Both the position numbers and the translations under genes were made by a program. This document shows positions 2,688 through 61,039 of a DNA stretch of 64,000 nt, piece by piece. The notes beneath the pieces were generated by a model. It was given only the letters and a program-made list of their open reading frames with translations, searched no databases and was not told the origin of the DNA. Every line of letters begins with the position of its first letter. The first letter of the stretch is position 1. The DNA is taken from NCBI RefSeq assembly GCF_028532485.1, contig NZ_CP116942.1, positions 3,782,001-3,846,000 on the forward strand. Reading direction: 5' to 3'. This DNA is from Iamia majanohamensis (GTDB taxonomy: Bacteria; Actinomycetota; Acidimicrobiia; Acidimicrobiales; Iamiaceae).

Positions 2688-4822
2688 TCAGGCCGCGTCG
2701 TCGGGGGCGGGGGTGAAGCCCAGGATGCGGCCGTAGAAGGCCAGCTCGGCCCGGAGGGCGGCGACGATGGTGGCGGCCTGGCGGAACCCGTGGCCCTCCC
2801 CCTCGAAGAGCAGGTACTCGTGGTCGAGGCCCCGCTCGGCGGCGGCGGCCACCACCGCCTCCGCCTGCGAGGGCGGGACGACGGCGTCGTCCGCGCCCTG
2901 CAGCACGAGGACCGGCGTGGACAGGCCGTCGAGGAGGTTCAGCGGGCTGCGGGCGGCGTAGACGTCGGAGGCCCCGGGCCACGGCCCCACGAGGCCGTCG
3001 AGGTAGCGGGACTCGAACTTGTGGGTGTCGGTCGCCAGGGCGCCCAGGTCGGTGACGCCGTAGAGGCTGGTGCCGACGGCGAAGGCGTCGGAGGTGCAGA
3101 GCGCGGCCAGGGTGGTGAACCCCCCGGCCGAGCCGCCCCGGATGGCGACCCGGGCCTCGTCGACCACGCCCTCGGCGGCCAGGTGGCGGGCGGCGGCGAC
3201 GCAGTCCTCGACGTCGACGATGCCCCACGCCCCGTCGAGCAGGCGCCGGTAGGGCCGGCCGTGGCCGGTGGAGCCGCCGTAGTCGACGTCGACCACGGCC
3301 ACGCCCCGGCTGGTCCAGAACTGGCGGGAGAGCTCGAGCACGGGCCGGGCCGCGCTCGTGGGCCCCCCGTGGATCATCACCAGCAGGGGCGGCCGTTCGC
3401 CGTCGGGCGCCATCGAGGAGGTGCTGGTCGGCCGGTAGAGCTGGCCGTGGGCGGTGCGGCCGCCCGCGCTCGGGAAGGAGATGGGCTCGGGCAGGGCGAT
3501 GTCGTCGGCCCCGAGCCCGACGTCGCGCGCCGGGCGGAGGGGGCGGGACCCGCCGGTGGCGGCCACGTCGAGGGCGCCGATGGTGGGCACGGCCCTCCGG
3601 CCCCGGCCCCCGTCGGAGGCGGGGGCGGCGGACCCCGGCGGCAGGTCGAGCAGCACCGGCGTGGCCTCGGCCCGTCCGGAGCCGGCCACGACCAGGCCTG
3701 GGTCGGGCCCGGACCGGCGGCCAGGTGGCTGACGAGGGTGACCGGGGCGCCGGCCAGCTCCAGCGCCAGCCGGGCCAGCGGGGACTCGGAGCCGGTGCCC
3801 GGCGGGCCCGGCGTCACCAACCCGACGCCGGTGGCTCCGTGGCCGGTCACGGTGACGAGCAGGCGGCCGTCGGCGAGGGGGGCGAACCACCGCATGCCGG
3901 CCACCCAGCGGGCCCCGCCGACCTCGGCGTCGACCGGGGCCACCACCTCGGGGGCGGCGTCGGGCCCGGCACCCCCGGCGTCGGCGATGCGGTGCAGGTT
4001 CCACCAGCCGTCGCGTGCGTCGGAGCAGAACCACAGGGTGCCGTCGGGTCCCCACTCGGGCTGGACGACGGCCTCCTCGGGGCCGCCGGCCACCACCGCG
4101 CCCTCGTCGCGCAGGACGGGGGCGCCCCGGTCGTCGCGGCCGAGCCCGGCCACGCACAGCTCGGTGCCGTCCCAGGGCATCCGGGGGTGGTCCCAGCGGA
4201 CCCAGGCGAGGCGGGCCGGGCCGGGGCGGGGGGAGGCGAGGAAGTCGGGGCCCGACACCAGCACCCGGACCCGGTCGGGGTCGTCGACGGCCGAGCCGTC
4301 GGTGGGCACGGCGACCACCTGGTGGACCGGCTCGCCGGCGTCCGCGGGTGCGCCCGCCTCGCCCGGGTGGGCCTCGCGCACGGCGAGCACCCACCCGCGG
4401 TCGAGGGCGACGAGGTCGCCGTAGCGCAGTCCCCGGGGCGAGGCCGGCTCGGGGGTCAGGGGCGTGGGCACGGCGTCGGGGTCGTCGGCCACCAGGCGGT
4501 GGAGGCGCTGGTCGTCCCACTGGGCGAAGGTGACCACCCCGCTCTCCACGCACCAGGCCCCGCCCCCGTACTCGAGCAGGGCGGTGCGGGCGTTCCAGGT
4601 GCGGTCGTCGGGTGCGGGCCGGTCGCCCAGGACCTCCTCGCGGGTGCCGTCGCGACGGCGGCGGACCAGGGCGGTGCGGCCCCCCTCGGCCGGTCGCGCC
4701 TCCGACCACCACACGTCGTCGCCGTCGACCGCGACCTCGCCCGGCGACGCCGCCCCGGTGACCAGCCGCTCGGGGCTGATGGGGGAGGGCCACGAGCCGT
4801 ACGGCCGTACCGCGCGGGTCAC
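2688..4822 (-). pseudogene. S9-family prolyl oligopeptidase/acylaminoacyl peptidase, frameshifted
   Basis: Two adjacent frames together encode one S9 serine peptidase. The N-terminal part starts at GTG 4822 (VTRAVRPYGSWPSPISPE, a typical start for this family) and carries the beta-propeller, including the SP-like WSEARPAEGGRT and LWFCSDARDGWWNLH blades. The C-terminal alpha/beta-hydrolase half lies in another frame and ends at 2688: MIHGGPTSA (oxyanion region), nucleophile elbow RGGSAGGFTT, Asp in GADDAVVPP and His in GEGHGF. The frames cross between about 3690 and 3718, in a run of G and C; one extra base there would restore a single 711-712 aa protein. This is either a real frameshift or a sequencing error; both halves look otherwise undamaged, which favours error or very recent mutation. 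Substrates would be short peptides in the cytosol. Confidence 0.8.
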
Positions 4823-20196: not shown

Positions 20197-20265
20197 AAAA
20201 CGACGACGACCTCCCCGTGGGGAGGTCGTGGGAGCGCACGCGTGGGATGCCGGCGGCGTGCGCTC
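20197..20265 (-). promoter_or_regulatory. ilvB transcription attenuator: two hairpins and a short U-run
   Basis: On the minus strand the leader-peptide stop is followed by hairpin 1 (GAGCGCACG/CGTGCGCTC, 20232-20240 with 20257-20265), then a terminator-like hairpin with 11-bp perfect arms ACGACCTCCCC/GGGGAGGTCGT (20206-20229), then CGTCG and TTTT (20197-20200). This is the order expected of a ribosome-mediated attenuator: leader peptide, alternative hairpin, terminator. The U-run is short, as usual at this GC content. Confidence 0.7.
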
Positions 20266-20300
20266 TAGGGCCCGAGTACGAGGAGGGTGCCGGCGGTCAT
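20265..20300 (-). CDS. ilvB leader peptide (attenuation)
   Basis: An 11-codon frame on the minus strand, MTAGTLLVLGP then TAG. Four of eleven residues are branched-chain amino acids in a block (LLVL), encoded CTC CTC GTA CTC. It resembles the 'LVLG' leader peptides known before ilvB in other actinobacteria. The ribosome would stall in this block when charged Leu or Val tRNA is scarce, favouring an antiterminator. The stop codon overlaps the base of hairpin 1. No Shine-Dalgarno sequence precedes the ATG, but GACACT lies 8 nt upstream, so the RNA may be leaderless. An upstream in-frame GTG (20339) would give a 23-residue version. Confidence 0.7.
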   Translation of the reverse strand: MTAGTLLVLGP

Positions 20301-20478: not shown

Positions 20479-20997
20479 ATGACGCCCGTGTTCCTGGGTC
20501 GCATCCAGACCCGCATCTTCGTCGCCTTCACCGTCGGCGCCCTGTGGACGCTGCTCATCACGCCGTTCCTGCTCATCAACGCGCCGGGGCAGGGCGGCTA
20601 CAAGCTGGCCTTCACCCTCGACGACATCAACGGCAACAGCGGCCTGCTCGAGGCCTACAAGCTCGCCTTCGCCGCCCTGGTCATCGTCACCGTGTTCGGC
20701 TGCCTCGTCTGGGAGCCGATCTACCACGGGCTCATGCAGTTCCGGTGGGAGAAGGACTGGCCCGCGTTCTTCAACTTCTGGCAGGTCGTCCCCGAGGGGA
20801 TCACCACGTTCCTGCTGCTCCACGTCAGCTGGCTCAACCCGCTGCCGGACCTCGACGGCGACAAGAGCCAGTTCGTGCCCGTCCTGGCCTACATCTTCCT
20901 CTTCACGTCCACCTGGATCGTCACCTGGCTCTTCGCGAACGGCCCGATGAAGATCTTCTTCCTGCGCTGGCGCTTCAACGGCGGCCAGCTCGTCTGA
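20479..20997 (+). CDS. four-helix integral membrane protein of unknown function
   Basis: 172 aa, not recognised. Predicted membrane segments: FVAFTVGALWTLLITPFLL (near residues 14-32), LAFAALVIVTVFGCLVWEPI (62-81), FWQVVPEGITTFLLLHVSWL (100-119) and VLAYIFLFTSTWIVTWLFAN (134-153). Between the first two is a polar loop (YKLAFTLDDINGNSGLLEAY), and the C-terminus is basic and aromatic (KIFFLRWRFNGGQLV), probably cytoplasmic. It sits 11 bp before the pseudokinase gene on the same strand, so the two plus the FHA gene look like one operon; this suggests, without proof, that it is a membrane anchor or client of that module. Confidence 0.75.
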   Translation: MTPVFLGRIQTRIFVAFTVGALWTLLITPFLLINAPGQGGYKLAFTLDDINGNSGLLEAYKLAFAALVIVTVFGCLVWEPIYHGLMQFRWEKDWPAFFNFWQVVPEGITTFLLLHVSWLNPLPDLDGDKSQFVPVLAYIFLFTSTWIVTWLFANGPMKIFFLRWRFNGGQLV

Positions 20998-21008: not shown

Positions 21009-21812
21009 ATGGACCGCATCGCCGACTACCAGCTGATCCGCCCCCTCGGTGAGGGGAGCAACGGGAGCTACCACCTGGCCACCACGCCGCGCCGTCTCGG
21101 CATCGCCGCCGACCAGGTGGCGGTGAAGGTGCTCGAGGTCGCCGCCGGCGACGAGGCCTTCCACCGCCTCACCCGGGAGCTGCGGACCTTCGCCAAGGTG
21201 CGCAGCGCCCACCTCGTCACCCTCTACGACGCGGGTCAGGAGGCGGGCCGCTGCTACTACGCCATGGAGTACTGCCCCCTCGGGTCCCTCGCCCACCCGG
21301 CCCAGGAGATGTCCCGGGAGGAGAAGGTGGCGGCGGTGGCCGACGCGGCCCGGGCCGCCCACGACCTCCACGAGGCCGGCATCGCCCACCGGGCCATCAA
21401 GCCCTCCAACATCCTGCTCACCGAGGAGGGCGCCAAGCTCTCGGACCTCGGGCTCGTGCAGCTCCTCGCCCCGGGCCAGACCATCACCGGGCTCGGCGCG
21501 GTGGGGTCGGTCGAGTACCTCGACCCGGCCATCATGCGGGGCGAGCGGGCGTCGCGGTCCACCGACATCTGGGCCCTGGGGGTCACCCTCCACCGTGCCC
21601 TCACCGGCACCAGCGTGTACGGCGAGCTGCCCGACCGCGACCCGCTGCTCGCGGTCCGCCGGGTGCTGTCCTCGCCACCGACCCTCGACCCCGGCCTGAG
21701 CGACGCCGAGGCCGAGATCATCCGTCGCTGCTTCGACAAGGACCTGACCGCCCGCTACGGCACCGCCGCCGAGCTGGCCGATGCCCTCGACGCCCTCGGG
21801 AGCGCCTCATGA
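21009..21812 (+). CDS. Ser/Thr protein kinase homologue lacking the catalytic Asp (pseudokinase)
   Basis: 267 aa, kinase domain only. The glycine loop is GEGSNGSYHLA (residues 14-24), the ATP-binding lysine is VAVK (K40), and the magnesium motif is SDLGL (D146). The catalytic loop, normally HRDxKxxN, reads HRAIKPSN (127-134): the catalytic aspartate is alanine (codon 21393-21395, GCC). The activation segment keeps an AVGSVEYLDPAIMRGERAS region and later DIWALGVTLHRALTG. There is no membrane helix or sensor domain. It probably binds nucleotide and acts as a scaffold or switch rather than an enzyme (inference). Its stop overlaps the start of the FHA gene by four bases (ATGA), a sign of tight coupling. 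Confidence 0.88.
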   Translation: MDRIADYQLIRPLGEGSNGSYHLATTPRRLGIAADQVAVKVLEVAAGDEAFHRLTRELRTFAKVRSAHLVTLYDAGQEAGRCYYAMEYCPLGSLAHPAQEMSREEKVAAVADAARAAHDLHEAGIAHRAIKPSNILLTEEGAKLSDLGLVQLLAPGQTITGLGAVGSVEYLDPAIMRGERASRSTDIWALGVTLHRALTGTSVYGELPDRDPLLAVRRVLSSPPTLDPGLSDAEAEIIRRCFDKDLTARYGTAAELADALDALGSAS

Positions 21813-23476
21813 ACCTGGCCGACGCCCGCCTCGCCCCCTCGCCCGGGGCCGACGGCCTCGTCACCCGCACCGGGGGCGCCGTCCTCTTCGTCGCCGGTCG
21901 CACGCCGGTCACCGAGGTGGCCCGCCTGGTCGAGGCGGTGGAGTCCGCGGCCGACGCCCCCGCGCCGGGCCGCCAGTTGGCCCGGGCCATGGCCACGCTC
22001 GTCGGCTCCGACTCCGGTGCCCTGCCCGGCTTCGCCCTGGTGGCCACCTCCACCGGCGGGATCTACGTCAAGGCCTACGGGCCCGTCGAGGTCCGCGTCC
22101 AGGGCGAGGGCGGCGAGGAGGTCATCAGCGCCGTCGGGTCCTTCACCGGCTTCGACCGGGAGCTCACCGGGACCTTCCACACCATCGTCGCCCACCGGGC
22201 CGGCGAGCCCGTCCCGGTGCCCGCCTTCGACGTCGACGTCCGGGCCGGCACCACCCCGGGCACGGGCTTCGCCCTCACCACCCTGACCGGCCCGGTCGAC
22301 GCGCCGGCCGCCGAGGTGCCCGCCTCGGCCCCCGAGGCCGCGCCGGAGCCGGACCCGGCGGCGACCGAGCCGCCGGCCGCCCCCGTGGCCGACGGGGTGC
22401 CGCTCGACCCCCCCACCCAGGCCTGGACCCCCGAGGAGGAGGCGGCCGCCACCGCGGCGGCCGAGGAGCGCGCCGCAGCGCCGCCGCCGGTGGCCGACGG
22501 GCCCGAGGTGGAGGCGGCCGCACCCCCGGTCGCCGAGCCCCCGACCGCACCGCCCGTCGACGAGCCCCCCGCCGCACCCCCGGTGGCGGAGGAGCCCCCG
22601 ACCGCACCGCCGGTCGCCGAGCCCCCTGCGGCGCCGCCGGCGACCGAGCCGCCCCCGTCGGCCCCTCCTGCCGTCGAGGCCCCGGTGTCGGCGGCGCCGC
22701 CCTCGGCCGAGCCCCCCGGGTTCGCGGCCCCCCCGTCGGCCGAGCCGCCGGGGTTCGCGCCGCCGTCGGCGGAGGCCGCCGCCCCCCACCCGGCCGAGCC
22801 GCCGGCCTTCTCCCCGCCGGCCGACGAGCCCGCGCCGGAGCCGCCGCCGTACGAGGCGGCGACCATGCCGCCCACCGCCCTCCCCGACTTCGAGTCCCAC
22901 CTGCTCGGCGCCCTCGACGACGACGAGGTCGACGCGCGCGAGCCGCTCCCGGTCGAGCTCGACCCCGGCGAGGTGCGGGCCCCCGACCAGGACGACGCCC
23001 AGGAGGTCATCGTCCAGGGGGTGCTCTGCTCCCGGGGCCACTTCAACGACCCCCGGTCGCGGTTCTGCTCGTCGTGCGGCATCTCCATGGTGCAGAACAC
23101 CCAGGTGCTCACCCCGGGGCCCCGGCCGCCGCTCGGCGTCCTCGTCTTCGAGGACGGGGCCACCTTCTCGCTCTCCCAGGACTACGTGGTCGGGCGCCAG
23201 CCCGAGGTCAGCGAGGCGGTGCAGCAGGGCCTGGCCCTGCCCATCCCCGTCGACGACCCCGAGCGCTCCATCTCGCGGGCCCACGCCGAGCTGCGGCTCG
23301 TCGACTGGGAGGTCCACCTCATCAACCTCTCGGCCACCAACGGCTCCTTCGTCTGGGACGAGACCCAGCAGCAGTGGGTGCCGATCCCCACCGGCCAGTC
23401 GGTGGTGCTGTCGGCCGGCATGCGGGTGGCCCTGGGCCGCCGCTCCGCCGTCTTCGAGTCCAGCCTCGTCCGCTGA
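21809..23476 (+). CDS. FHA-domain protein with Pro/Ala-rich linker and zinc ribbon
   Basis: 555 aa. The N-terminal ~150 residues form an unrecognised beta-rich domain (LVTRTGGAVLFVAG, GFALVATSTGGIYVKAYGPV). Residues ~165-350 are a disordered Pro/Ala/Glu linker with repeated EPP-APPV units. A zinc-ribbon-like motif follows (LCSRGHFNDPRSRFCSSCG: C-x3-H ... C-x2-C, near 405-425), then a C-terminal FHA domain with VGRQPEVS, the hallmark SISRAHAEL and INLSATNGSFV near 490-525. FHA domains bind phosphothreonine. Directly coupled to a pseudokinase, it could read phosphorylation by another kinase in the cell; two active kinases are encoded elsewhere in this window. Confidence 0.9.
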   Translation: MNLADARLAPSPGADGLVTRTGGAVLFVAGRTPVTEVARLVEAVESAADAPAPGRQLARAMATLVGSDSGALPGFALVATSTGGIYVKAYGPVEVRVQGEGGEEVISAVGSFTGFDRELTGTFHTIVAHRAGEPVPVPAFDVDVRAGTTPGTGFALTTLTGPVDAPAAEVPASAPEAAPEPDPAATEPPAAPVADGVPLDPPTQAWTPEEEAAATAAAEERAAAPPPVADGPEVEAAAPPVAEPPTAPPVDEPPAAPPVAEEPPTAPPVAEPPAAPPATEPPPSAPPAVEAPVSAAPPSAEPPGFAAPPSAEPPGFAPPSAEAAAPHPAEPPAFSPPADEPAPEPPPYEAATMPPTALPDFESHLLGALDDDEVDAREPLPVELDPGEVRAPDQDDAQEVIVQGVLCSRGHFNDPRSRFCSSCGISMVQNTQVLTPGPRPPLGVLVFEDGATFSLSQDYVVGRQPEVSEAVQQGLALPIPVDDPERSISRAHAELRLVDWEVHLINLSATNGSFVWDETQQQWVPIPTGQSVVLSAGMRVALGRRSAVFESSLVR

Positions 23477-23551: not shown

Positions 23552-25777
23552 CTAGGTGGGGGCGGGCTCGGGGCTGGTGGGCGGGGTCGGCTCGGCCTCG
23601 TCGAGGAGCGTGTCGAGGCCGCTGCGCTCGATCTGGTTCGGGTCGGGCGCCACCAGCAGGACGGGGCAGCCGAGGCGCTCGGCGTCGGGACGGGCCCGCT
23701 CGACCGGCTCCAGGCCCTCGGGTCCGGCGAAGGGGCGCACCACGGCGCGCGCCCCGGCGGCGGCCCGGGCCCCGTCGACGGTGTCGAGGCCGGCGGCCTC
23801 GGACCGGCCGGGGTGGCCCAGGGCCGCCAGCCGGTCGAGCACCGCCTGGTGCCGCCGCGTGCCCCGGCCGGGGCTGATGCCGACGAGGGTGGGGGCGGCG
23901 CCGGAGGGCAGGCCCAGGCGCACGCCGTACTCGAGGGCCGCCAGGCCGCCCGGGCCCTCCCGGACCTCCACGACCGGCGGGTCGTCGGGGGCGGGGGTGC
24001 CGGGGCGGGGCAGGGGGGCCACGACCACGCCGACGTCGGCGGGGCCGGCGGCGACCAGGGCGGCGACGGTGGCCACCCAGTCGGGGTCGTCGCGGCGGTC
24101 ACCCACCAGCACCAGGCGGGCGCCCAGACGGGCCGTCTGGGCCGCGATGTCCTCGGCCATCGACTCGGTGCGCTGCGAGAAGGACTGCACCGACAGGCCC
24201 CGGTCGCGCACGCGCGCCTCGAGGCGGCCCAGGGCGTCGAGCTCGGTGGCGATGGTGTCGAGGAAGCTCGACAGCTCCCGGCCCTCCCCGGACTCCTGCT
24301 GCTCGAAGCTGGTGAGGACGACCTCGGCCGGCTGCTGGGAGAGGGCGATGCCGCACGCCAGGTCGACGAGCGGCTCGGCCCGCTCGGGCTCGTCGATGGC
24401 GACGAGCACGCGGAAGGCGATCTGGTCCCCCAGCGCGGCCCGCTCCGCCTCGGCGATGTCGTGCTGGACCATGCGGTCCGGGTAGATCCGCTTGAGCAGC
24501 GGCGAGGTCATGACCGTGGTGATGATGGCCATGAGCACGAGGGCGGTGAACAGGGTGTCGTCGAGCACGCCCTTGTCCCGCCCGATCGACAGCAGCACCA
24601 GCTCGGTGAGGCCGCGCGTGTTCATCAGGGTGCCGATGGCGGCCGAGCGCCGCCACGACATCCCCTGGATCCGCCCGGCCACGGTGGCCCCCACGAACTT
24701 GCCGACGCAGGCGACCACGACCACCGCCGCCAGCACCCCGAGGAAGCTGAGGATCGACACCTGCCCGACCCGCGCGTCGAGGCCGGTGACGATGAAGAAG
24801 AGGGGCAGGAGGAGCAGCACGGCCACGCTCTCGATGCGCTCCAGCACGGCGTGGGTGAAGGCCTCGGCCCCCTCCCGGGGGAAGATGGCGCCGAGCACGA
24901 AGGCCCCGAAGATCGAGTGGATCCCGATCAGCGAGGTGGCCCAGGCGCTGGCGAGCAGGAGGGCGAGCACGGCGCCGAGCACGTCGGGGGTCAGCTGGCC
25001 GGCAGCCCGGAAGCGGGCGTTGAGGCGCACCAGCAGGGGCCGGACGGCCACGGTCATGAACGCCCCGAACCCCATCGTCAGCAGGAGCACCCGACCCAGC
25101 TCCAGCGCCGGGTTGCCGCCCCCTCCCCCGGTGCTGGCCTCGACCACGGCGATGACCAGGGCGAGGAGCGACCAGGCGAGGATGTCGTCGATCGCGGCGC
25201 AGGCGAGGGTGACGGCACCCACGGGCGTCCGCTGCATGCGACGGTCGGTCAGGATGCGGGCCAGCACCGGGAAGGCGGTGACCGACATCGACGCCCCCAC
25301 GAAGAGCCCGAAGGGCAGGAAGTCGATGCCCTCGGGCAGGTAGGTCTCGTGCAGGGTCCAGGCGAGGCCGAAGCCGAGGGCGAAGGGGAGCACCACCGAG
25401 GTGACCGACACCCCCGCGGCGAGGCGCTCCTTGCCCCGGATGAGCTTGAGGTCGAGCTCGAGGCCGACCACGAACATGAAGATGACCAGGCCCAGCTCGG
25501 CCAGCACCTTCAGGAAGGGGCGGGCGTCGGTCGGGAACAGGGTGTCGCTGAGAGGCTGGCCCAGGCCGAGCAGGTCCGTGACCGTCCCCGAGCCGAGCAG
25601 CAGCGGCCCGAGCATCAGCCCGGCGAGGATCTCGCCCACGACCGGCGGCTGGCCGATGCGGCGGAACAGCGCCCCCACCAGGCGGGCGACGACCAGGATG
25701 ATGGCGACGTCGATCAGCACCCACGCGACGGTCGACTCCTCGACGCCGCTCCCGGCGGCCACGATCCAGCCCGACAT
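23552..25777 (-). CDS. CPA2-family cation/proton antiporter with a C-terminal USP-like domain
   Basis: 741 aa from ATG 25777, which has GAGGGAT upstream. About 12-13 transmembrane helices fill residues 15-410: GQPPVVGEILAGLMLGPLLL near 45, LGLVIFMFVVGLELDLKLI near 95, the ion-binding pair in LACAAIDDILAWSLLAL near 190 (two aspartates), LPLFFIVTGLDARVG near 330, and NTRGLTELVLLSIGRDKG near 390. The C-terminal ~300 residues are soluble and read as two universal-stress-protein-like halves (FRVLVAIDEPERAEPLVDLA; LVLVGDRRDDPDWV). It exchanges Na+ or K+ for H+ at the cytoplasmic membrane; the cation cannot be told from sequence. It is divergent from the XRE gene. Confidence 0.88.
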   Translation of the reverse strand: MSGWIVAAGSGVEESTVAWVLIDVAIILVVARLVGALFRRIGQPPVVGEILAGLMLGPLLLGSGTVTDLLGLGQPLSDTLFPTDARPFLKVLAELGLVIFMFVVGLELDLKLIRGKERLAAGVSVTSVVLPFALGFGLAWTLHETYLPEGIDFLPFGLFVGASMSVTAFPVLARILTDRRMQRTPVGAVTLACAAIDDILAWSLLALVIAVVEASTGGGGGNPALELGRVLLLTMGFGAFMTVAVRPLLVRLNARFRAAGQLTPDVLGAVLALLLASAWATSLIGIHSIFGAFVLGAIFPREGAEAFTHAVLERIESVAVLLLLPLFFIVTGLDARVGQVSILSFLGVLAAVVVVACVGKFVGATVAGRIQGMSWRRSAAIGTLMNTRGLTELVLLSIGRDKGVLDDTLFTALVLMAIITTVMTSPLLKRIYPDRMVQHDIAEAERAALGDQIAFRVLVAIDEPERAEPLVDLACGIALSQQPAEVVLTSFEQQESGEGRELSSFLDTIATELDALGRLEARVRDRGLSVQSFSQRTESMAEDIAAQTARLGARLVLVGDRRDDPDWVATVAALVAAGPADVGVVVAPLPRPGTPAPDDPPVVEVREGPGGLAALEYGVRLGLPSGAAPTLVGISPGRGTRRHQAVLDRLAALGHPGRSEAAGLDTVDGARAAAGARAVVRPFAGPEGLEPVERARPDAERLGCPVLLVAPDPNQIERSGLDTLLDEAEPTPPTSPEPAPT

Positions 25778-25834
25778 GTGCGATCCCTCGATCCTCGGGG
25801 GCCCGGTGGCCCGGCGATGCCCAGCGGCAGGGGA

Positions 25835-25840
25835 AATGTA
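25835..25840 (-). promoter_or_regulatory. candidate -10 element (TACATT) of the antiporter gene
   Basis: TACATT on the minus strand, 58 bp before ATG 25777, in the only A/T-rich patch of the divergent gap. That gap shows nothing else. Confidence 0.3.
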
Positions 25841-25917
25841 CGACGCCCGGGGCCGGGTGGCGATGGGTCCGCGGGGGGGACGGTTCACCCTCGCGCCGAG
25901 CGGGGACGCTCCCTCTC

Positions 25918-32564: not shown

Positions 32565-34286
32565 TCAGGCGCAGCCGGTGATGATGTCCTGGATGTCGCT
32601 CGGGAGGGTGCCGCCGTTGCGGACCTCCTCGTCGAGGGCGGTGAACTCGTCGAAGCTGTAGCGCTGCTCGATCTGCTCGAGGGCGCAGGTGCAGGACTCG
32701 GTGGTCCCGCCGGAGGTGGTGCACGAATTGATGAACTGCGTGCGGGCCGTCGCCGGGTAGTCGTCGCCCCCGGGCGTCGGCGCCTCCGTGGTGGTGGGCT
32801 CCTCGGTGGTGGTGGGCTCCTCGGTGGTCGTGCCCTCCGTCGACGGCGCCGGCTCGGTGGTGGCCTCGGTCGTGGTGGTGGTGTCGGTCGAGGACGACTC
32901 GCTGCCGCCGGAGATGAAGGCGAACAGGGCGATGATGAGGATGACCACCACGACGGCCACCACCGCGACGATGGCGACCACCTTCCCGCCCCCGGAGCCC
33001 CCGCTCGAGGGGGCCGGGGCGCTGTAGCCGTGGGTCCCGGTGGGGTAGGCCCCGGAGGGGGCGGCGCTCCAGGTCGCGCCGGAGGGCGTGGCCGTCGGCG
33101 GGCCGCCGGTGCCACCCCCGTAGGAGGCGGGCGCGGGCGTGCCCGGGTACGACGGCGGCGCGGGCGTCCCGCCGTAGGGGGCGGGGGTGCCGTAGGCGGT
33201 GGCCGGCGCCGGCGTGCCCGTCGCCGGCGGCGCCGCGGGCTGGCCGTAGGGGGTCGCCGGGCCGGCGGGCGGCGGGGCGGGCGTGCCGGGCGAGACCGTC
33301 GGCGCCGCGGACGGGGCGGCCCCGGTGTCCGCCGCGGCGGCGGCCGCACCTCCGGCCGCGGCCGCACCGGCGGCGAGGGCGGCCGGCGGCAGGCCGGGGA
33401 GCAGGTCGGGGTCGGTGTGGAGGGGCACCGAGGCGATGCCCCGCTGCTCCTGGAGGTGCTGGGCCCACTGGGCCGCCTCCAGCGCGGACTGGGGCCGGTT
33501 GGCCGGGTCCTTGTCCATCAGGGTGTGGATCAGCTGGGCCACGTCGTCGGGGACGCCGACGTCGGTCAGCGCCGGCGGGTCCTCGGTGTTGACCCGGTAC
33601 ATGATGGCCACGACGGACTCGTCGACGTCCTTGACGAAGGGGGTGCGGCCGCTCGCCACTGCGCAGAGCATGGCGCCGAGGGCGTAGAGGTCGCTGGCGG
33701 ACGACGCCCGCTCGCCCCGGAGCACCTCGGGGGCGGTGTAGGCGACGGTGCCGGTGATGACCCCGGTGGCGGTGCGCTGGCTGTCGCCGAAGCGGGCGAT
33801 GCCGAAGTCCGCCAGCTTGTAGTCGCCGATCCGGGAGGTGAGGACGTTCGCGGGCTTGATGTCGCGGTGGAGGATCCCCGCCTTGTGGGCCGCGCCCAGC
33901 GCGTCGCACATCTGCACCGCGATGCGCAGCACCTCCTCGAGGGGGGCGGGGCCGTGGTCGGCCAGCTTGGCCTGGAGGGACCCGGAGGGCAGGTGCTCCA
34001 TGGCGAGGAACGGCAACCCGTCCTCGGTGGCCCCGGCGTCGTAGACGGTGACCACGTGGGGGTGCCACGACAGCGAGCCGATGGCCTGGCACTCGGCCTC
34101 GAAGCGGCGCTTGGCGTCGTCGTCGGTGGGGTCGACGTTGGTCAGCACCTTGAGGGCCACCGTGCGCCGCAGCTTCGGCTGGTGGGAGCGGTAGACGACG
34201 GCGAAGCCGCCCCGTCCCAGCTCGCGCTCGATGTCGTAGCCCGGGACCGCGACGCCCCCCGACAGCCGGTCGCCCCCGTCGCTCAT
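32565..34286 (-). CDS. receptor-type Ser/Thr protein kinase
   Basis: 573 aa. The N-terminal kinase domain (residues ~15-275) is complete: GRGGFAVVY, VALKVL (Lys), HRDIKPANVL (catalytic Asp), LADFGIARF and an activation segment TGTVAYTAPEVLRG. Residues ~295-410 are a Pro/Ala/Gly/Thr/Tyr-rich juxtamembrane linker. One helix VVAIVAVVAVVVVILIIALF (near 425) crosses the membrane. Outside is a Thr/Glu/Pro stalk with tandem TTTEEP repeats, then a ~65-residue domain with cysteines in FINSCTTSGG, ESCTCALEQ and the final ITGCA, suited to two disulfides. Topology is PknB-like but without PASTA repeats; the signal is unknown. A GAGGGG Shine-Dalgarno-like sequence precedes the ATG. The 185-bp gap upstream (34287-34471) shows no gene. 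Confidence 0.92.
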   Translation of the reverse strand: MSDGGDRLSGGVAVPGYDIERELGRGGFAVVYRSHQPKLRRTVALKVLTNVDPTDDDAKRRFEAECQAIGSLSWHPHVVTVYDAGATEDGLPFLAMEHLPSGSLQAKLADHGPAPLEEVLRIAVQMCDALGAAHKAGILHRDIKPANVLTSRIGDYKLADFGIARFGDSQRTATGVITGTVAYTAPEVLRGERASSASDLYALGAMLCAVASGRTPFVKDVDESVVAIMYRVNTEDPPALTDVGVPDDVAQLIHTLMDKDPANRPQSALEAAQWAQHLQEQRGIASVPLHTDPDLLPGLPPAALAAGAAAAGGAAAAAADTGAAPSAAPTVSPGTPAPPPAGPATPYGQPAAPPATGTPAPATAYGTPAPYGGTPAPPSYPGTPAPASYGGGTGGPPTATPSGATWSAAPSGAYPTGTHGYSAPAPSSGGSGGGKVVAIVAVVAVVVVILIIALFAFISGGSESSSTDTTTTTEATTEPAPSTEGTTTEEPTTTEEPTTTEAPTPGGDDYPATARTQFINSCTTSGGTTESCTCALEQIEQRYSFDEFTALDEEVRNGGTLPSDIQDIITGCA

Positions 34287-47974: not shown

Positions 47975-49510
47975 TCAGTCGCTGAGCGTGGGCTGGGGCG
48001 CGGCCAGGCCCCCCGAGGGCACGGGCACGCCGGCCAGCTCGGCGTCGACCACGTCGGCCCCCTCGACCGGGTCGGGGTGGCGGCTGCCCGGGGCCGTGCT
48101 GCGGTGCACGCCCGCGGCCACCACCACGCAGAGGCCGGCCAGCACCGCGGCCGCCAGGTACGCCTGGGCGTAGCTGCCCTCCAGCCCGACGGCGCCCTCC
48201 CGGGCCTGCTGGACGGTCTGGAGCAGCTGGATCCCGAAGGTCACCCCGACCTGCACCACCATCTGCTGGGCCGCGCCGGCGACGCCGAGGTCGGCCTCGT
48301 CCACGGAGTGGGCGACGGTGGAGGACATGGCCGGGTTGCTGATGCCCATGGCCACGCCGGCCAGGGCCAGGCCCACGACGATGACCCCGGTCGCGGTCCC
48401 CGCCCCGATGGTGGCCATCACCCCCATGGAGGCCACCAGGGCGACGGCGCCGAGCACCCCGGTGCTGCGCTCGCCCAGGCGGGCCACCACCACGGCCGCC
48501 AGGGGCCCGGTGACGGCGAAGGCCAGGGGCCGGGCCGTGGACACCAGGCCCGTGCGCGTCTCGTCGAAGCCGAGCACGTTCTGCATGAGGAGGGGGGTGA
48601 GCACGAAGCTGCCCATGTAGGCCGCGTTCATGAGCCCGAGCATCAGGATCGGCAGGGCGAAGCCCCGCCGGCGCAGGTACCGCGGCGGCAGCAGGGGCGC
48701 TGGGGTGCGGCCCTCGTGGACGAGGAACCCCACCGTGGCGAGGGGGGCGACGACGAGGAGGGCCACGACCCACGGGTCGGACCAGCCCCGGCCGGGGGCC
48801 AGGTTGAGGGCGACGAGCAGGGGCGTGGCCGACAGGGCGAGCAGGCCGGCCCCGCCCCAGTCGAAGGCCCCGACGCGCCGCCGGGGCGTCTCGGGCAGGA
48901 CCTTGGCCGCCACGACCAGGGCGGCGAGGACGAGGGGGACCTGCCCGGCGAAGATGGCCCGCCACCCGAGGGTGGCCACCAGCGGCCCGCCGATCACGAC
49001 GCCGACCACCGGCCCGCCCGCCGCGACCATCGACCACCAGCCGAGGGCGCGGACGCGGCGCGACGCCGGGAAGACCAGGGCGATGAGGGCGAAGGAGGCC
49101 GGGCCGGTGGCCGCGCCCTGCGCTGCGGCCAGGACCCGGAAGGCGATGAGCGACCCCGCGCTCCAGGCCACCGCGCTGGCGGCGGCGCTGACGGCGGCGC
49201 CGGCGAGCCCGAGCAGGAACACCTTGCGCTGGCCCCACAGGTCGCCGAGCTTGCCCACCGCGGGGCCGATGATGCCGAAGGCCAGGATCGGCCCGCTCAC
49301 CACCCAGGTCAGGGTGCTCTGGCTGGCCCCGAGGTCGCCCGAGATGCGGGGGATGGAGACGGCCAGGATGGTGACGGTCACGTTGACCGTGAACAGGCCC
49401 AGCAGCAGGGTGACGAGGATCGTCCGGGGGGACCGCTCGGTGGGCAGGGCGGCCTCGTCGGGGTCCCGTCCCGCCGGGGCCGGCACGCCGTCCTCCCGTG
49501 CACCGGCCAC
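47975..49510 (-). CDS. MFS exporter (DHA2-like), second target of the shared operator
   Basis: 511 aa from GTG 49510, supported by TACCGT 8 nt upstream. About 14 transmembrane segments: LFTVNVTVTILAVSIPRISG near residue 40, AFGIIGPAVGKLGDLWGQRK near 75 (MFS motif A variant GKLGDLWGQRK), VVGVVIGGPLVATLGWRAIF near 160 and MGISNPAMSSTVAHSVDEAD near 400. A charged N-terminal ~25 residues precede the first helix, and the C-terminal tail is polar. The palindrome TTGACCCGCGGGTCAA lies 16 bp upstream, next to the -10 element, so this gene is probably repressed by the TetR protein encoded at 45319-45951. Confidence 0.88.
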   Translation of the reverse strand: MAGAREDGVPAPAGRDPDEAALPTERSPRTILVTLLLGLFTVNVTVTILAVSIPRISGDLGASQSTLTWVVSGPILAFGIIGPAVGKLGDLWGQRKVFLLGLAGAAVSAAASAVAWSAGSLIAFRVLAAAQGAATGPASFALIALVFPASRRVRALGWWSMVAAGGPVVGVVIGGPLVATLGWRAIFAGQVPLVLAALVVAAKVLPETPRRRVGAFDWGGAGLLALSATPLLVALNLAPGRGWSDPWVVALLVVAPLATVGFLVHEGRTPAPLLPPRYLRRRGFALPILMLGLMNAAYMGSFVLTPLLMQNVLGFDETRTGLVSTARPLAFAVTGPLAAVVVARLGERSTGVLGAVALVASMGVMATIGAGTATGVIVVGLALAGVAMGISNPAMSSTVAHSVDEADLGVAGAAQQMVVQVGVTFGIQLLQTVQQAREGAVGLEGSYAQAYLAAAVLAGLCVVVAAGVHRSTAPGSRHPDPVEGADVVDAELAGVPVPSGGLAAPQPTLSD

Positions 49511-49525
49511 GGCTCCGCACGGTAC

Positions 49526-49541
49526 TTGACCCGCGGGTCAA
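49526..49541. promoter_or_regulatory. palindromic operator TTGACCCGCGGGTCAA (site 2)
   Basis: Fully palindromic 16-mer. On the minus strand it is followed by G, TACCGT (49519-49524), an 8-nt spacer and GTG 49510. The spacing to the -10 element and start is the same as at site 1 (45266-45281). Confidence 0.75.
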
Positions 49542-49651
49542 CCCACCCCCCGACCCGGTGTGGACGTGGTCACGTCGCGGGCCCGCCACACCCGGCCGGC
49601 CGTCGCCAGCTCGTGGGTGGTGGCGGCCTCGGCGCCCCGCCGGGTCGTCCG

Positions 49652-51994
49652 CTACTCGAGGGTGATGTCGACCCTGGAGCCCCGCCGGACCTCCTGGCCC
49701 ACGCCCGGCGTGGTGCCCGACGGCGTGCCGGTGGCCGGCCCCTCCACGTCGCCCGCCACCAGCCCGGCGGCCTCCAGGGCGTCGACCGCGGCGGCGAGCG
49801 AGCCGGCGCCGCTGACGTCGGGCACCGTGACCAGGTCGGGGCCCTGGGAGACCACGACCTCGACGGTGCTGTCGCGGTCCACCTCGGCCCCGGCCCCGGG
49901 GGCGGTGCCGATGACGAGCCCGGCGTCGACGTCGTCGCTGAACTCGCCCTGCACGTCGGTGGCCAGGCCCAGCTCGGTGAGGGCACCGACGACCGCGTCC
50001 TGGGGCTGGCCCGCCAGGTCGCCCGGGATGGTGCGGGGCTCGGGCCCGTCGGAGACCACCAGGCCCACGGGGGTGCCCCTCTCGACGGGGTCGGGCAGGT
50101 CGTCGGCGACGGAGATGACCACGTCGGCGGGCACCTCCTCGTCGAAGCGGCGGGTGACGTCGGGCTCCAGGCCGGAGAAGGTGAGCAGGTCGGTGGCCTC
50201 CTCGAGGTCCATGCCCGCGGCCACCGCGGGCAGGTCGACCAGCGTGGCCCCCTCCGACACCAGGAGGGTGACCGCCTCCCCCTCGGCCAGGTCGGTGCCG
50301 GCGTCGGGGCGGGTGCCGAGGACGTCGCCGGCGGTGGTGCCGTCGCGCCGCACCTCCTCGACGACGACCTCCCACCCCAGCTCGGAGAGGTCGGCGCGGG
50401 CCGAGCCCACCGACTGGTCGGCCACCGTCGGCACCGCGTGGACCGGCGTGGCCTCGGTGAGGTCGGCCACGACCAGGGCGACCACGGCCCCCACGGCGAG
50501 GGCGAACACGAGGGCGGCGAGGCGGCCGGGCCAGCGGCGACGCCGGCCGGTGGGCGAGCGGGGGTCCCAGGGCTCCTCGTCGTCCAGCTCGTCCGGGTCG
50601 TCCGGGTCGTCCCCCCAGCCCTCGGGGCCGTCGCCGAGCGCACCGCCGTCGGACGGCGGGGCCGGCGGCGGGACGTCGACGACCCGGGTGCGGTCGTCGT
50701 CGCGCGGCGGCGCCGGCGGCGGGACGTCGACGACCCGGGTGCGGTCGTCGTCGACCGGGGCGAAGGCCACGGCCCGCCGCGGCCCGGTCGGGCCCGTCGG
50801 CGGCGCACCCACGGTGGTGGCGTCGTCGGGGCCGTCCCCCCGAGCCTCGCCCGGGCCGGTGCCCTCGGCGTCGGGCCGCCAGGCCAGCGTCCCGTCGGCG
50901 GGATCCGGGGCGCCGGCGAGCCCGGCCCCGCGAGCGTCGGTGAGCACGGTGCCGTCGTGGTCGCCCACTGCCGGCGCGTCCCCGTCGTCGGCGCCGACGG
51001 CGTCCCCGCCGGCCACCACGGCGCCGGAGCGGACGAAGGCGGGCACCTCGAGGTCGTCGCGGCTCGGGGTCACCGGCCCGGACCCGGGCAGCTCGGTGGG
51101 GTGGGGGTCGTCGGCCAGGTCGACGTCGACGGCCCCGGCCAGGGGCACCGGCGCGGGCCGGGGCAGCTCGGTCGCCACCCGGGTCAGGGCTGCGGCCAGG
51201 GCCCGGCCGTCGAGGCGCTCGTCGGGGTCGGGCGCCCCGGCCTCGGCCAGGGGGGCGGCCAGGGCGCCCAGGGCCTCGGGGACCTCGAGGGGCTTGCCGA
51301 CCCGGGCCATGAGGGTGCCGAGGGTGGTGTCGGTGGCGAAGGGGACCTCGCCGGTGACCGCCTCCACCAGCACCAGGGCGAGGGAGTACACGTCGGCGTG
51401 GCCGGTGAGGGCCAGGCCCTGGGCCTGCTCCGGCGAGGCGTAGCGGGCGGTGCCCACCACCGCTCCCTGGGGCTCGGTCCACGCCGCCTCGGCCAGGGCC
51501 CGGGCCAGGCCGAAGTCGGCGATGCGGAGGCGGCCCTCGTCGCCGAAGAGGAGGTTGGCCGGCTTCACGTCCCGGTGCACGAAGCCCCGGCGGTGGGCGT
51601 AGTCGAGCCCCCGGGCCGCCTGCAGCCCTACCACCAGGGCCTGGGAGGGCGTGAGGCGGTGGCCCCGGTCGAGCAGGGCCCGCAGGCTCCCGCCGCCGAG
51701 GTACTCGGTGACGATCCAGGGCGACTCGTCGCCGTCCTGGCCCCAGTCGTAGACGGCCATGACGTGGGGGTGGTTGAGCGCGGCGGCGGCCTGCGCCTCG
51801 GTGCGGAACCGGCGCAGGAACTCCTGGTCGTCGGCCAGGGCGTCGTGGAGGACCTTCACCGCCACCTGCCGCCGCAGGCGGACGTCGTCGGCCACGAAGA
51901 CCTGGGCCGACGCGCCGCGCCCGACGGGGGCCACCAGGCGGTAGCGGCCCCCCAGCACCCGGCCGATCTGCTCGGCCATCCGGGACGTCGCCAC
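49652..51994 (-). CDS. PASTA-domain Ser/Thr protein kinase (PknB-like)
   Basis: 780 aa from GTG 51994; TACCCT 6 nt upstream supports this start over ATG 51979. The kinase domain (residues ~15-270) is complete: GRGASAQVFVADD, VAVKVLHD, HRDVKPANLLF (catalytic Asp), IADFGLARAL and ARYASPEQAQG. Then comes a ~200-residue disordered acidic linker with a 17-residue tandem duplication (DDDRTRVVDVPPPAPP twice), one membrane helix (LAALVFALAVGAVVALVVAD), and outside three or four PASTA repeats (e.g. VDLPAVAAGMDLEEATDLL, VTVPDVSGAGSLAAAVDAL). PASTA domains sense peptidoglycan or lipid II; family members control cell-wall growth. It is not next to pbpA/rodA as in mycobacteria. Confidence 0.93.
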   Translation of the reverse strand: MATSRMAEQIGRVLGGRYRLVAPVGRGASAQVFVADDVRLRRQVAVKVLHDALADDQEFLRRFRTEAQAAAALNHPHVMAVYDWGQDGDESPWIVTEYLGGGSLRALLDRGHRLTPSQALVVGLQAARGLDYAHRRGFVHRDVKPANLLFGDEGRLRIADFGLARALAEAAWTEPQGAVVGTARYASPEQAQGLALTGHADVYSLALVLVEAVTGEVPFATDTTLGTLMARVGKPLEVPEALGALAAPLAEAGAPDPDERLDGRALAAALTRVATELPRPAPVPLAGAVDVDLADDPHPTELPGSGPVTPSRDDLEVPAFVRSGAVVAGGDAVGADDGDAPAVGDHDGTVLTDARGAGLAGAPDPADGTLAWRPDAEGTGPGEARGDGPDDATTVGAPPTGPTGPRRAVAFAPVDDDRTRVVDVPPPAPPRDDDRTRVVDVPPPAPPSDGGALGDGPEGWGDDPDDPDELDDEEPWDPRSPTGRRRRWPGRLAALVFALAVGAVVALVVADLTEATPVHAVPTVADQSVGSARADLSELGWEVVVEEVRRDGTTAGDVLGTRPDAGTDLAEGEAVTLLVSEGATLVDLPAVAAGMDLEEATDLLTFSGLEPDVTRRFDEEVPADVVISVADDLPDPVERGTPVGLVVSDGPEPRTIPGDLAGQPQDAVVGALTELGLATDVQGEFSDDVDAGLVIGTAPGAGAEVDRDSTVEVVVSQGPDLVTVPDVSGAGSLAAAVDALEAAGLVAGDVEGPATGTPSGTTPGVGQEVRRGSRVDITLE
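50661..50753. repeat. 51-nt tandem duplication inside the PASTA kinase gene
   Basis: A 42-nt block is repeated exactly at 50661-50702 and 50712-50753 (period 51 bp, 17 codons), encoding the duplicated DDDRTRVVDVPPPAPP linker segment. The exact identity suggests a recent duplication. Confidence 0.85.
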
Positions 51995-52746: not shown

Positions 52747-55116
<2,370 letters not shown>

Positions 55117-58724: not shown

Positions 58725-59846
58725 GTGCTCGACGACGACAAGGTCTCCGCCCTCCTCGCCCGCGCCCGCCGGGAGGTGGACGACGGGCTCCTGCCCGCGG
58801 TGCAGCTCGCCATCGGCCTCGACGGCGAGGTGGTGGTGGACGAGACCTTCGGGGCCGACCCCGCCACCCGCTTCGTCCCCTTCTCCTGCACCAAGGCCCT
58901 GGTCGGGGCGGCCCTCTGGCGCCTCGTGGGTGACGGCGACCTCGACCTCACCGCACCGGTCGCCACCTACGTGCCGGCGTTCGCCACCAACGACAAGGAG
59001 GGGGTGACCGTCGAGCAGGTGCTCATGCACGTGGGCGGCTTCCCCACCGCGCCGCTCGGGCCCGGCCGGTGGGAGACCCGCGAGGGGCGGCTGGAGGCCT
59101 TCGCCCGCTGGCGGCTCACCCTCACGCCGGGCGAGACGTTCATGTACCACCCCACCGCCGGGCACTGGGTGCTGGCCGAGATCATCGAGACCCTGGCCGG
59201 CGAGCCCTACGCCGACGCGGTGGAGCGGCTCGTCACCGCGCCGCTGGGGCTCCCCCGCCTGCTCGGCATCCCGCGCGACCAGCAGGACGGGATCCTCGAC
59301 GCCGTCGCCGTCGGGGAGCCGCCCACCGCCGACGAGATGGAGGAGGCCTTCGGCGTGCGCGTCGACCTGGCCGCGCTGGTGCCGCCGGACGTGGCCGTGG
59401 GGGCCCTGCTCACCCTGAACGCGCCGGAGGCCCGCGAGCTCGGCGTCCCCGGCGGCGGGGCGGTGGTGCGCGCTGCGGACCTGGCCCGCCTCTACCAGGC
59501 CTTCCTCCACGACCCCGAGGGCCTCTGGGACCCCGAGGTGCTGGCCGACGCCACCGGCACGGTGCGCAACCAGCTGCCCGACCTGTGGGGCACGCCGGCC
59601 AGCCGCACCCGGGGCGGCCTGGTGGTGGCGGGCGACGACGGCCTGGCCCACCGCCGCGGCTTCGGGCGCACGGTGTCACCCCGGGCCTTCGGCCACGACG
59701 GCGCCGGGGGCCAGCTGGCCTTCGCCGACCCCGAGACCGGCCTCAGCGTGGCCTACCTCACCAACGGCCTCGACCAGCACCTCATCCGCCAGCAGCGCCG
59801 CGACACCGCCATCGCCAGCCTGGCCGCCGACCTCCTCCCCACCTGA
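58725..59846 (+). CDS. serine hydrolase of the beta-lactamase/DD-peptidase fold (class C-like)
   Basis: 373 aa from GTG 58725. Motif 1 is SCTK in FVPFSCTKALVGAALWRLVG near residue 52 (SxxK nucleophile and base); motif 2 is YHP in GETFMYHPTAGHWVLAEIIE near 140, where the usual YxN asparagine is replaced; motif 3 is the HDG-type FGHDGAGGQLAFADPETGLS near 325. HVGGFPTAPLGPGR near 105 is also typical of esterase-type family members (EstB, DUF-like serine hydrolases). There is no signal peptide, so the enzyme is probably an intracellular esterase rather than a penicillin-binding protein. Confidence 0.85.
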   Translation: MLDDDKVSALLARARREVDDGLLPAVQLAIGLDGEVVVDETFGADPATRFVPFSCTKALVGAALWRLVGDGDLDLTAPVATYVPAFATNDKEGVTVEQVLMHVGGFPTAPLGPGRWETREGRLEAFARWRLTLTPGETFMYHPTAGHWVLAEIIETLAGEPYADAVERLVTAPLGLPRLLGIPRDQQDGILDAVAVGEPPTADEMEEAFGVRVDLAALVPPDVAVGALLTLNAPEARELGVPGGGAVVRAADLARLYQAFLHDPEGLWDPEVLADATGTVRNQLPDLWGTPASRTRGGLVVAGDDGLAHRRGFGRTVSPRAFGHDGAGGQLAFADPETGLSVAYLTNGLDQHLIRQQRRDTAIASLAADLLPT

Positions 59847-59854
59847 CGTCCCAT

Positions 59855-59906
59855 CCGTTCTGGTCTGGAGGTGCGCCCCGGAGGGCCGGATCGCAGACCA
59901 GAAGCG
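59855..59906. repeat. 52-nt palindromic repeat family B, copy 1
   Basis: A 52-nt unit starting CCGTTCTGGTCTGGAG and ending AGACCAGAAGCG; TTCTGGTCTG/CAGACCAGAA form 10-bp arms around a GC-rich middle. A second copy starts 71 bp later. The pair fills the gap between the convergent hydrolase and mnmA genes. Confidence 0.82.
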
Positions 59907-59925
59907 CCGTTCCTGTGCGTCGTGA

Positions 59926-59977
59926 CCGTTCTGGTCTGGAGATGCGCCCCGGAGGGCCGGATCCAAGACCAGAAGCG
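59926..59977. repeat. 52-nt palindromic repeat family B, copy 2
   Basis: 49 of 52 positions match copy 1. The arms TTCTGGTCT/AGACCAGAA (9 bp) are intact. It ends 12 bp before the mnmA stop codon. Being palindromic and between convergent genes, the pair may act as a bidirectional terminator. Confidence 0.82.
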
Positions 59978-59989
59978 GTTGGACGCCGG

Positions 59990-61039
59990 TCAGGCCCGGG
60001 CCGCGGTGGCCCAGGCGACGACCTGGTCGCCCTCGTAGGCCACGAGCGCCTGGCCGGGGGCGACCCGGCGCTCGGGCCGACGCCACCACACCTCCCCCGC
60101 CTCGCCGTCGGCGGCGGTGACGAGGCACCCGGGGCGAGGCGCGCCGTGGGCGCTGACCTGCCAGGCGACCTCGCCGTCGACCGGGCCGGCGGCGACGCCC
60201 GCCCCGGTGACGGCCTGGGCGTCGGTGCGCAGGGCGTCCTCGGCCCCGACGGTGACCGTGGCCGCAGCCACGTCGACGTCCACGGCGTAGCGGGGGGCGG
60301 TGCCGCCCTGGAGGCCCAGGCCCCGCCGCTGACCGACGGTCACCGCCTCCACCGCGGGGACGGCGCCGACCTCGGCGCCGTCGACGTCGACCACCCGACC
60401 CGGCGACAGCGCCAGGCGGTCGCCGAGGAAGCGGTGGCGGCCCTCGGCCCGGGTGATGAAGCACACGTCCTGGCTGTCCGGCTTGGTCGCGGTGCGCAGG
60501 TCGAGGTCCCGGGCCCGGGCCCGCACCGCGTCCTTGGTGAGGTCACCGACGGGGAAGAGGACCCGGCCCAGGCGGTCGTGGTCGAGGCCGGCGAGCACGT
60601 AGGACTGGTCCTTCGCCCGGTCCGCGCCCCGCGCCACCCGGCGCACGCCGTCGGGGCCGACGGCGACGCGGGCGTGGTGGCCGGTCGCCACCGCGTCGAA
60701 GCCGAGGCGGTCGGCCCGCTCCAGCAGGGCCCCGAACTTGATGTGGCGGTTGCAGGCCATGCAGGGGTTGGGCGTGGCCCCGGTGGCGTGGGCGGCCACG
60801 TAGGGCCCGACCACGTCGGCCTCGAACTCCTCGGCGTAGCCGAAGGTGTGGTGGGCGATGCCGAGGGCGTCGGCGACCCGCCGGGCGTCGTCGACGTCGG
60901 CCACCGAGCAGCAGCCCGTGTCCGACGCCCCGCCCCACAGCTTGAGGGTGGCGCCGGTGACCTCGTGGCCGTCGGCCACGAGGCGGGCCGAGGCCACCGA
61001 GGAGTCGACCCCGCCGGACATGGCGACCAGGACCCTCAC
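59990..61039 (-). CDS. mnmA: tRNA 2-thiouridylase
   Basis: 349 aa from GTG 61039, which overlaps the stop of the cysteine desulfurase gene (GTGA). MnmA adds sulfur to U34 of Lys, Glu and Gln tRNAs using ATP. Signatures: PP-loop VAMSGGVDSSVASARLVADG near residue 5, then CCSVADVDDARRVADALGIA, catalytic NPCMACNRHIKFGALL near 93 (first active Cys), GHHARV, SYVLAGL, KPDSQDVCFI near 192 (second Cys) and VGQRRGLGLQGG near 238. The C-terminal barrel domain ends LVAYEGDQVVAWATAARA, shorter than in E. coli. The coupled desulfurase is the natural sulfur donor. Confidence 0.95.
   Translation of the reverse strand: MRVLVAMSGGVDSSVASARLVADGHEVTGATLKLWGGASDTGCCSVADVDDARRVADALGIAHHTFGYAEEFEADVVGPYVAAHATGATPNPCMACNRHIKFGALLERADRLGFDAVATGHHARVAVGPDGVRRVARGADRAKDQSYVLAGLDHDRLGRVLFPVGDLTKDAVRARARDLDLRTATKPDSQDVCFITRAEGRHRFLGDRLALSPGRVVDVDGAEVGAVPAVEAVTVGQRRGLGLQGGTAPRYAVDVDVAAATVTVGAEDALRTDAQAVTGAGVAAGPVDGEVAWQVSAHGAPRPGCLVTAADGEAGEVWWRRPERRVAPGQALVAYEGDQVVAWATAARA

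Follow-up and report, generated by a model that had tools for sequence, protein, structure and literature searches.

The HRA kinase gene and its FHA partner

Within the window analysed here, a 64,000-nucleotide stretch of the Iamia majanohamensis chromosome, three consecutive plus-strand genes encode a transmembrane (TM) protein of 172 aa (positions 20479..20997), a kinase-fold protein of 267 aa (21009..21812), and an FHA protein of 555 aa (21809..23476). A gene for a CPA2 cation:proton antiporter with a weak C-terminal Usp match lies convergently downstream on the minus strand (23552..25888). The stop codon of the kinase gene and the start codon of the FHA gene overlap by four bases as ATGA (21809-21812). 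The TM protein yielded no convincing match in Pfam or NCBIfam; it was originally predicted as a four-helix membrane protein, and its membrane nature holds, with three clear hydrophobic helices and possibly a fourth. No sigma-70-type promoter, plus-strand terminator, or Rfam match was found around the operon. In the gap separating the operon from ilvB, a short ORF on the ilvB strand (20206-20299, minus) reads MTAGTLLVLGP-stop and is followed by a 10-bp hairpin and a T-rich tail just before ilvB; in sequence this element looks like a branched-chain amino-acid attenuator, although it has no Rfam match.

The kinase fold is clearly recognized by PF00069 (E 1.8e-33, 116.5 bits against the Pfam cut-off of 31.7). 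Re-reading of the ORF confirmed its coordinates and the residues named in the original prediction, namely the ATP lysine in VAVK (K40), the aspartate of SDLG (D146, the DLG counterpart of DFG), and alanine in place of the HRD aspartate (H127-R128-A129, codon GCC). The catalytic loop, AHRAIKPSN (21384..21410), otherwise keeps K131 and the asparagine N134, and E57 and the activation-loop TITG segment are also retained. All 13 other kinases of the same genome that score above the Pfam cut-off retain this aspartate in an HRD or HGD motif, which makes HRA unique in this kinome; the two kinases encoded at 32565 and 49652 of the window, originally described as active, have both HRD and DFG. These retained residues (K40, E57, K131, N134, D146, and TITG) favor the idea that the kinase is still active at a lower rate and that the module works as it does in its HRD-bearing relatives. 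Alanine, however, cannot serve as a catalytic base. The HRD aspartate is moreover listed among the residues needed for catalysis (PMC4718504), and we consider residual activity of this kind distinctly unlikely.

In the FHA protein, a long Pro/Ala linker separates the N-terminal domain (aa 1-165, 21809..22303) from a zinc ribbon, and the FHA domain lies at the C-terminus. PF00498 matches aa 460-543 (E 2.9e-6, 28.0 bits against the Pfam cut-off of 20.7), and the phosphothreonine-binding residues of the GR...SRxH...NG pattern (R, S, R, H, N, and G) are all present in the FHA domain (23186..23437). The zinc ribbon directly precedes this domain and has the ligands C407, H411, C420, and C423 (23027..23080), a C-H-C-C set that is kept in nearly all ribbon-bearing loci.

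The N-terminal domain had been described as unique. It is indeed a separate domain, followed by the linker, ribbon, and FHA domain as predicted, and it had no convincing match in Pfam or NCBIfam, but its fold is not unique. The AlphaFold model (pLDDT 94.6) superimposes on the PP2C phosphatase PstP (1txo_A) with a Z score of 12.5 and an rmsd of 3.5 over 150 of 165 residues, and PP2C-fold proteins make up nearly all Foldseek top matches and all of the best 50 VIA-align rows. Judged from the model, the domain is thus a degenerate PP2C fold. The conserved metal-binding aspartates were not found, as no acidic column is conserved above 58% in 67 homologues; therefore, the domain looks like a pseudophosphatase throughout the phylum. 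Among the structural matches is the C-terminal domain of RssB, a PP2C fold that acts as an adaptor.

Gene neighbourhood and distribution

The gene order is not peculiar to this genome. In the three other Iamia species compared, the TM, kinase, and FHA genes follow in identical order with the CPA2 antiporter gene convergent downstream (in one of them, G003, the C-terminus of the FHA protein lies on a separate contig), and, within the order, about 30 genomes carry a homologous kinase gene that directly adjoins an FHA gene, bearing out the conserved neighbourhood that had been anticipated. Tabulation of the wider cluster over about 130 loci gave a recurring set across the Actinomycetota: a flavin monooxygenase-like protein, the TM protein, in many cases a TauE/SafE permease, the kinase, the FHA protein, and the CPA2 antiporter. 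Among 55 loci with full flanks that were picked by the FHA protein, the flavoprotein was present in 41, the TM protein in 40, a kinase with a good score against the family profile in 34, and the CPA2 antiporter in 18. A scan of named genomes with a zinc-ribbon/FHA profile located the FHA protein in Nocardia, Nocardioides, Pseudonocardia, Streptosporangiales, and Micromonosporaceae, as well as in Nitriliruptor-like and Thermoleophilia genomes. Its distribution is patchy, with 16 of 396 sampled genomes of the phylum encoding it.

The flavoprotein and TM genes are also paired in some loci without the kinase or FHA gene, and the TM protein is therefore not simply an anchor of the kinase. It stands as a conserved member of the triad, but the anchor role once suggested for it is weakened, its primary partner being the flavoprotein gene. 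The flavoprotein has no sequence relative in the PDB, and its predicted fold matches N-hydroxylating monooxygenases. In I. majanohamensis this gene lies outside the window cluster, elsewhere on the chromosome (49193-50659 of G000:C1). There, it is one gene away from another CPA2-like antiporter gene (locus L241, G000:C1:49193-53168), and a kinase at 54138 and two FHA domains at 59672-60454 are encoded nearby.

Two variant arrangements were observed. In one family, comprising L103, L104, and L105 (genomes G134, G050, and G099), the order of the FHA and kinase genes is reversed, the kinase has an intact HRD, and the FHA protein has no zinc ribbon. In L133 and L151 (G051 and G135), clusters of flavoprotein, TM, FHA, and CPA2 genes are kinase-free, and the FHA domain has tyrosine in place of asparagine and an altered S-R motif; phosphothreonine binding seems to have been lost in these two proteins.

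The HRD aspartate in the genus and in the kinase family

Conservation of the HRA alanine, proposed as a check on the original prediction, failed. Orthologues with intact HRD had been named beforehand as a refutation, and their existence refutes a conserved HRA pseudokinase but leaves the module standing. The kinases of all three other Iamia species, which are 82-84% identical to the window kinase, have HRD, and a single base (GAC -> GCC) separates them from HRA; we thus rejected HRA as a conserved trait of this orthologue group, and HRA is a one-off, since every congener has HRD. A second change in the same loop, A133S, is likewise private to the I. majanohamensis genome within the genus. In a tree of 71 family kinases and four outgroup kinases, from which the catalytic columns were excluded, the window kinase is sister (100/100) to the three HRD congeners, and its terminal branch (0.098) compares with 0.06-0.10 for theirs. 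Pairwise dN/dS is 0.20-0.24 for the window kinase versus 0.19-0.20 among the congeners. Accelerated evolution or decay of the kinase gene, as far as branch length and dN/dS would reveal it, was rejected on these unremarkable values. From these sequence comparisons, the loss of HRD is very recent and confined to one species, and the gene has remained under purifying selection after it.

Loss of catalytic residues recurs in the family as a whole. At least one of K40, D129, N134, and D146 is missing in 30 of the 71 sampled family kinases, a fraction that describes a sample picked by similarity to the window kinase and the FHA profile and not the phylum. The tree calls for about 10 changes in the state of the HRD aspartate, and well-supported branches force at least seven of them. 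An Acidimicrobiia clade of 11 kinases (HR[A/S]-I-R-P-G-N) has HRA or HRS with K40, N134, and the DxG/DxS aspartate kept and with intact FHA partners, which indicates that the HRA/HRS state can be stable; its alpha-C glutamate is replaced by histidine or tyrosine. Clade f15 contains the most degraded kinases, in which the lysine, HRD (now HGA or HGS), and DFG are all gone and which pair with an altered FHA site. A convergence from HRD to HGX has been noted in other pseudokinases (PMC4718504), and clade f15 matches it. In most lineages of the module, the kinase looks catalytically able by its residues.

Single HRD losses include the window kinase and a kinase from a Trebonia MAG (L218, 6509-7174), where HRA arose independently as a one-off among Streptosporangiales-like relatives and the FHA serine is changed to glycine. 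Within the HR[A/S] clade, the kinase of L122 (G334, 3810-4580) has HND, and QVG in the place of DFG; here, the aspartate may have been regained and the metal-binding aspartate lost.

An assembly base-call error at the HRA codon would mimic a private change, since a single base distinguishes it from the congeners and the comparison covered a single assembly of the species. We regard such an error as very improbable: the genome is a single contig with an estimated completeness of 99.4%, the neighbouring A133S would require a separate substitution, and HRA or HRS arises elsewhere in the family, including the one-off in the Trebonia MAG.

Kinase state was also compared with features of the FHA partner. 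All 38 FHA proteins that pair with a fully competent kinase have intact phosphothreonine-binding residues, as do 24 of the 29 whose kinase is degenerate; the resulting contrast in altered sites (0/38 versus 5/29, Fisher p 0.012) reflects three origins and falls short of significance on independent pairs. The table hints that FHA sites may erode only beside a dead kinase. In the linker before the zinc ribbon, the motif FESHLL (22889..22906; F-x-S-x-x-L) is conserved where the kinase is present. The pattern, which was fitted post hoc, occurs in 23 of 37 FHA proteins with a competent kinase, 15 of 29 with a degenerate kinase, and 4 of 31 where the kinase is absent, as against 1.8% in shuffles, and it is a candidate docking site.

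The private HRA could also mark a newly dead kinase gene on its way out, in a species where the module is unused or unregulated. HRA occurs in only one of four species, A133S has accumulated in the same loop, and the flavoprotein gene is absent from the cluster of this genome; in addition, related genomes that have no kinase keep the FHA protein alone (e.g., G006), and the changed FHA site of clade f15 accompanies its degraded kinases. Against such decay, the kinase ORF has no frameshift or stop, and the ATP lysine, the asparagine, DLG, the FHA site of the partner, and the ATGA overlap are all kept. The ordinary branch length and dN/dS also speak against it, yet a single recent change looks alike either way. 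On balance we find decay unlikely, though less so than the other alternatives discussed above.

Related systems and a proposed role for the module

The nearest functional analogue, as far as the likeness goes, is the MviN/FhaA pair, in which an actinobacterial dead kinase fold is likewise coupled to an FHA protein. The tail of Mycobacterium tuberculosis MviN (ActPs3) is phosphorylated by PknB and recruits FhaA, according to a 2025 review (PMC12599244), and the profile matches of the window FHA domain include FhaA (TB39.8, 3oun). The two are built differently. According to the same source, none of the catalytic motifs survives in the ActPs3 family and the activation loop is partly lost, and the MviN domain is part of a membrane protein; the window kinase, in contrast, is a stand-alone protein of 267 aa that retains K40, N134, D146, and its activation loop, and the ActPs3 combination of degraded motifs and activation-loop deletion does not describe it. 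Its FHA partner, the product of the adjacent gene, differs in being fused to a pseudo-PP2C domain and a zinc ribbon.

The best solved relative of the zinc-ribbon/FHA part is ArnA of Sulfolobus acidocaldarius (5a8i, profile E 6e-9). This zinc-ribbon/FHA protein belongs to the archaellum network and has links to Hanks-type kinases (PMC6509490), and the placement of the ribbon directly before the FHA domain is shared with the window protein. ArnA differs in having a vWA partner (ArnB), in belonging to another domain of life, and in that the text consulted mentions no pseudo-PP2C domain in it. The full definition of neither the MviN/FhaA nor the ArnA family applies to the window module.

A kinase, a PP2C fold, and an FHA domain also come together in PknB/PstP and in the T6SS set PpkA-PppA-Fha, and the nearest folds of the N-terminal domain are PstP and PppA. 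These sets differ from the window module, whose PP2C domain is part of the FHA protein and shows no conservation of the metal-binding acids; the T6SS TagH model TIGR03354 gave the FHA protein 17.7 bits against a cut-off of 120.25, well short of a TagH assignment.

Other bacterial kinase folds with lost catalytic residues, several of them actinobacterial, are ActPs1, ActPs2, GLW, CP1, DYD, and DLHK. As described in the accessible part of PMC12599244, ActPs1 has lost all three motifs, DYD has arginine in place of the lysine, and ActPs2 combines the same lysine replacement with HRN, a DFG deletion, and a C-terminal TM segment; none of the bacterial pseudokinase families described there matches a K-HRA-DLG protein without a TM segment. 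A search of the open-access literature found no description of this gene cluster. The original statement that no described system has this exact arrangement is upheld to that extent, with the qualification that MviN/FhaA is a known functional analogue of different build.

The sequences are best read as a signalling module of a kinase and a pseudophosphatase-FHA protein that can dispense with catalysis and has lost it repeatedly, very recently so in I. majanohamensis. The original idea of a pseudokinase paired with a phosphothreonine reader survives in part: the triad is conserved, the kinase stays under purifying selection, and degenerate kinases recur, but HRA itself is not conserved. In competent relatives, the kinase would phosphorylate itself or a protein of the cluster, giving a phosphothreonine for the FHA domain. 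The window kinase has lost its catalytic base while keeping the ATP-binding residues, the activation-loop threonines, and the partner, with no excess of change; it would dock on the FHA protein, with the phosphate supplied by other cellular kinases. We give about an even chance to the reading that, inside a phylum-wide module, it binds nucleotide and docks on the FHA protein with no catalysis or almost none. Since CPA2 antiporters and a flavin monooxygenase-like enzyme are regularly encoded beside the module, its output would probably be an adjustment of membrane transport or of redox chemistry. The kinase-FHA pair may thus form a switch that relies on binding and not on catalysis.

More tentatively, and as a possibility short of a probable one, the cluster could represent an undescribed phylum-wide module that joins a PP2C fold, dead-looking in all homologues, to a phosphothreonine reader and to a kinase that has died some ten times. 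Both halves could then be pseudoenzymes, the kinase fold would serve mainly as a ligand sensor or docking subunit with catalysis optional, and the module would control CPA2 antiport, the flavin monooxygenase-like enzyme, or both.

The analysis assigns a fold to the N-terminal domain of the FHA protein, which is matched by no Pfam model. Pseudokinases are usually studied long after their formation. In this family, HRD enzymes exist alongside a one-step HRA form whose active-looking HRD sisters are 82-84% identical, an HR[A/S] clade that is stable, and forms that are fully eroded. The partner is the same throughout, and with these natural proteins the role of a kinase fold after catalysis is lost is directly testable.
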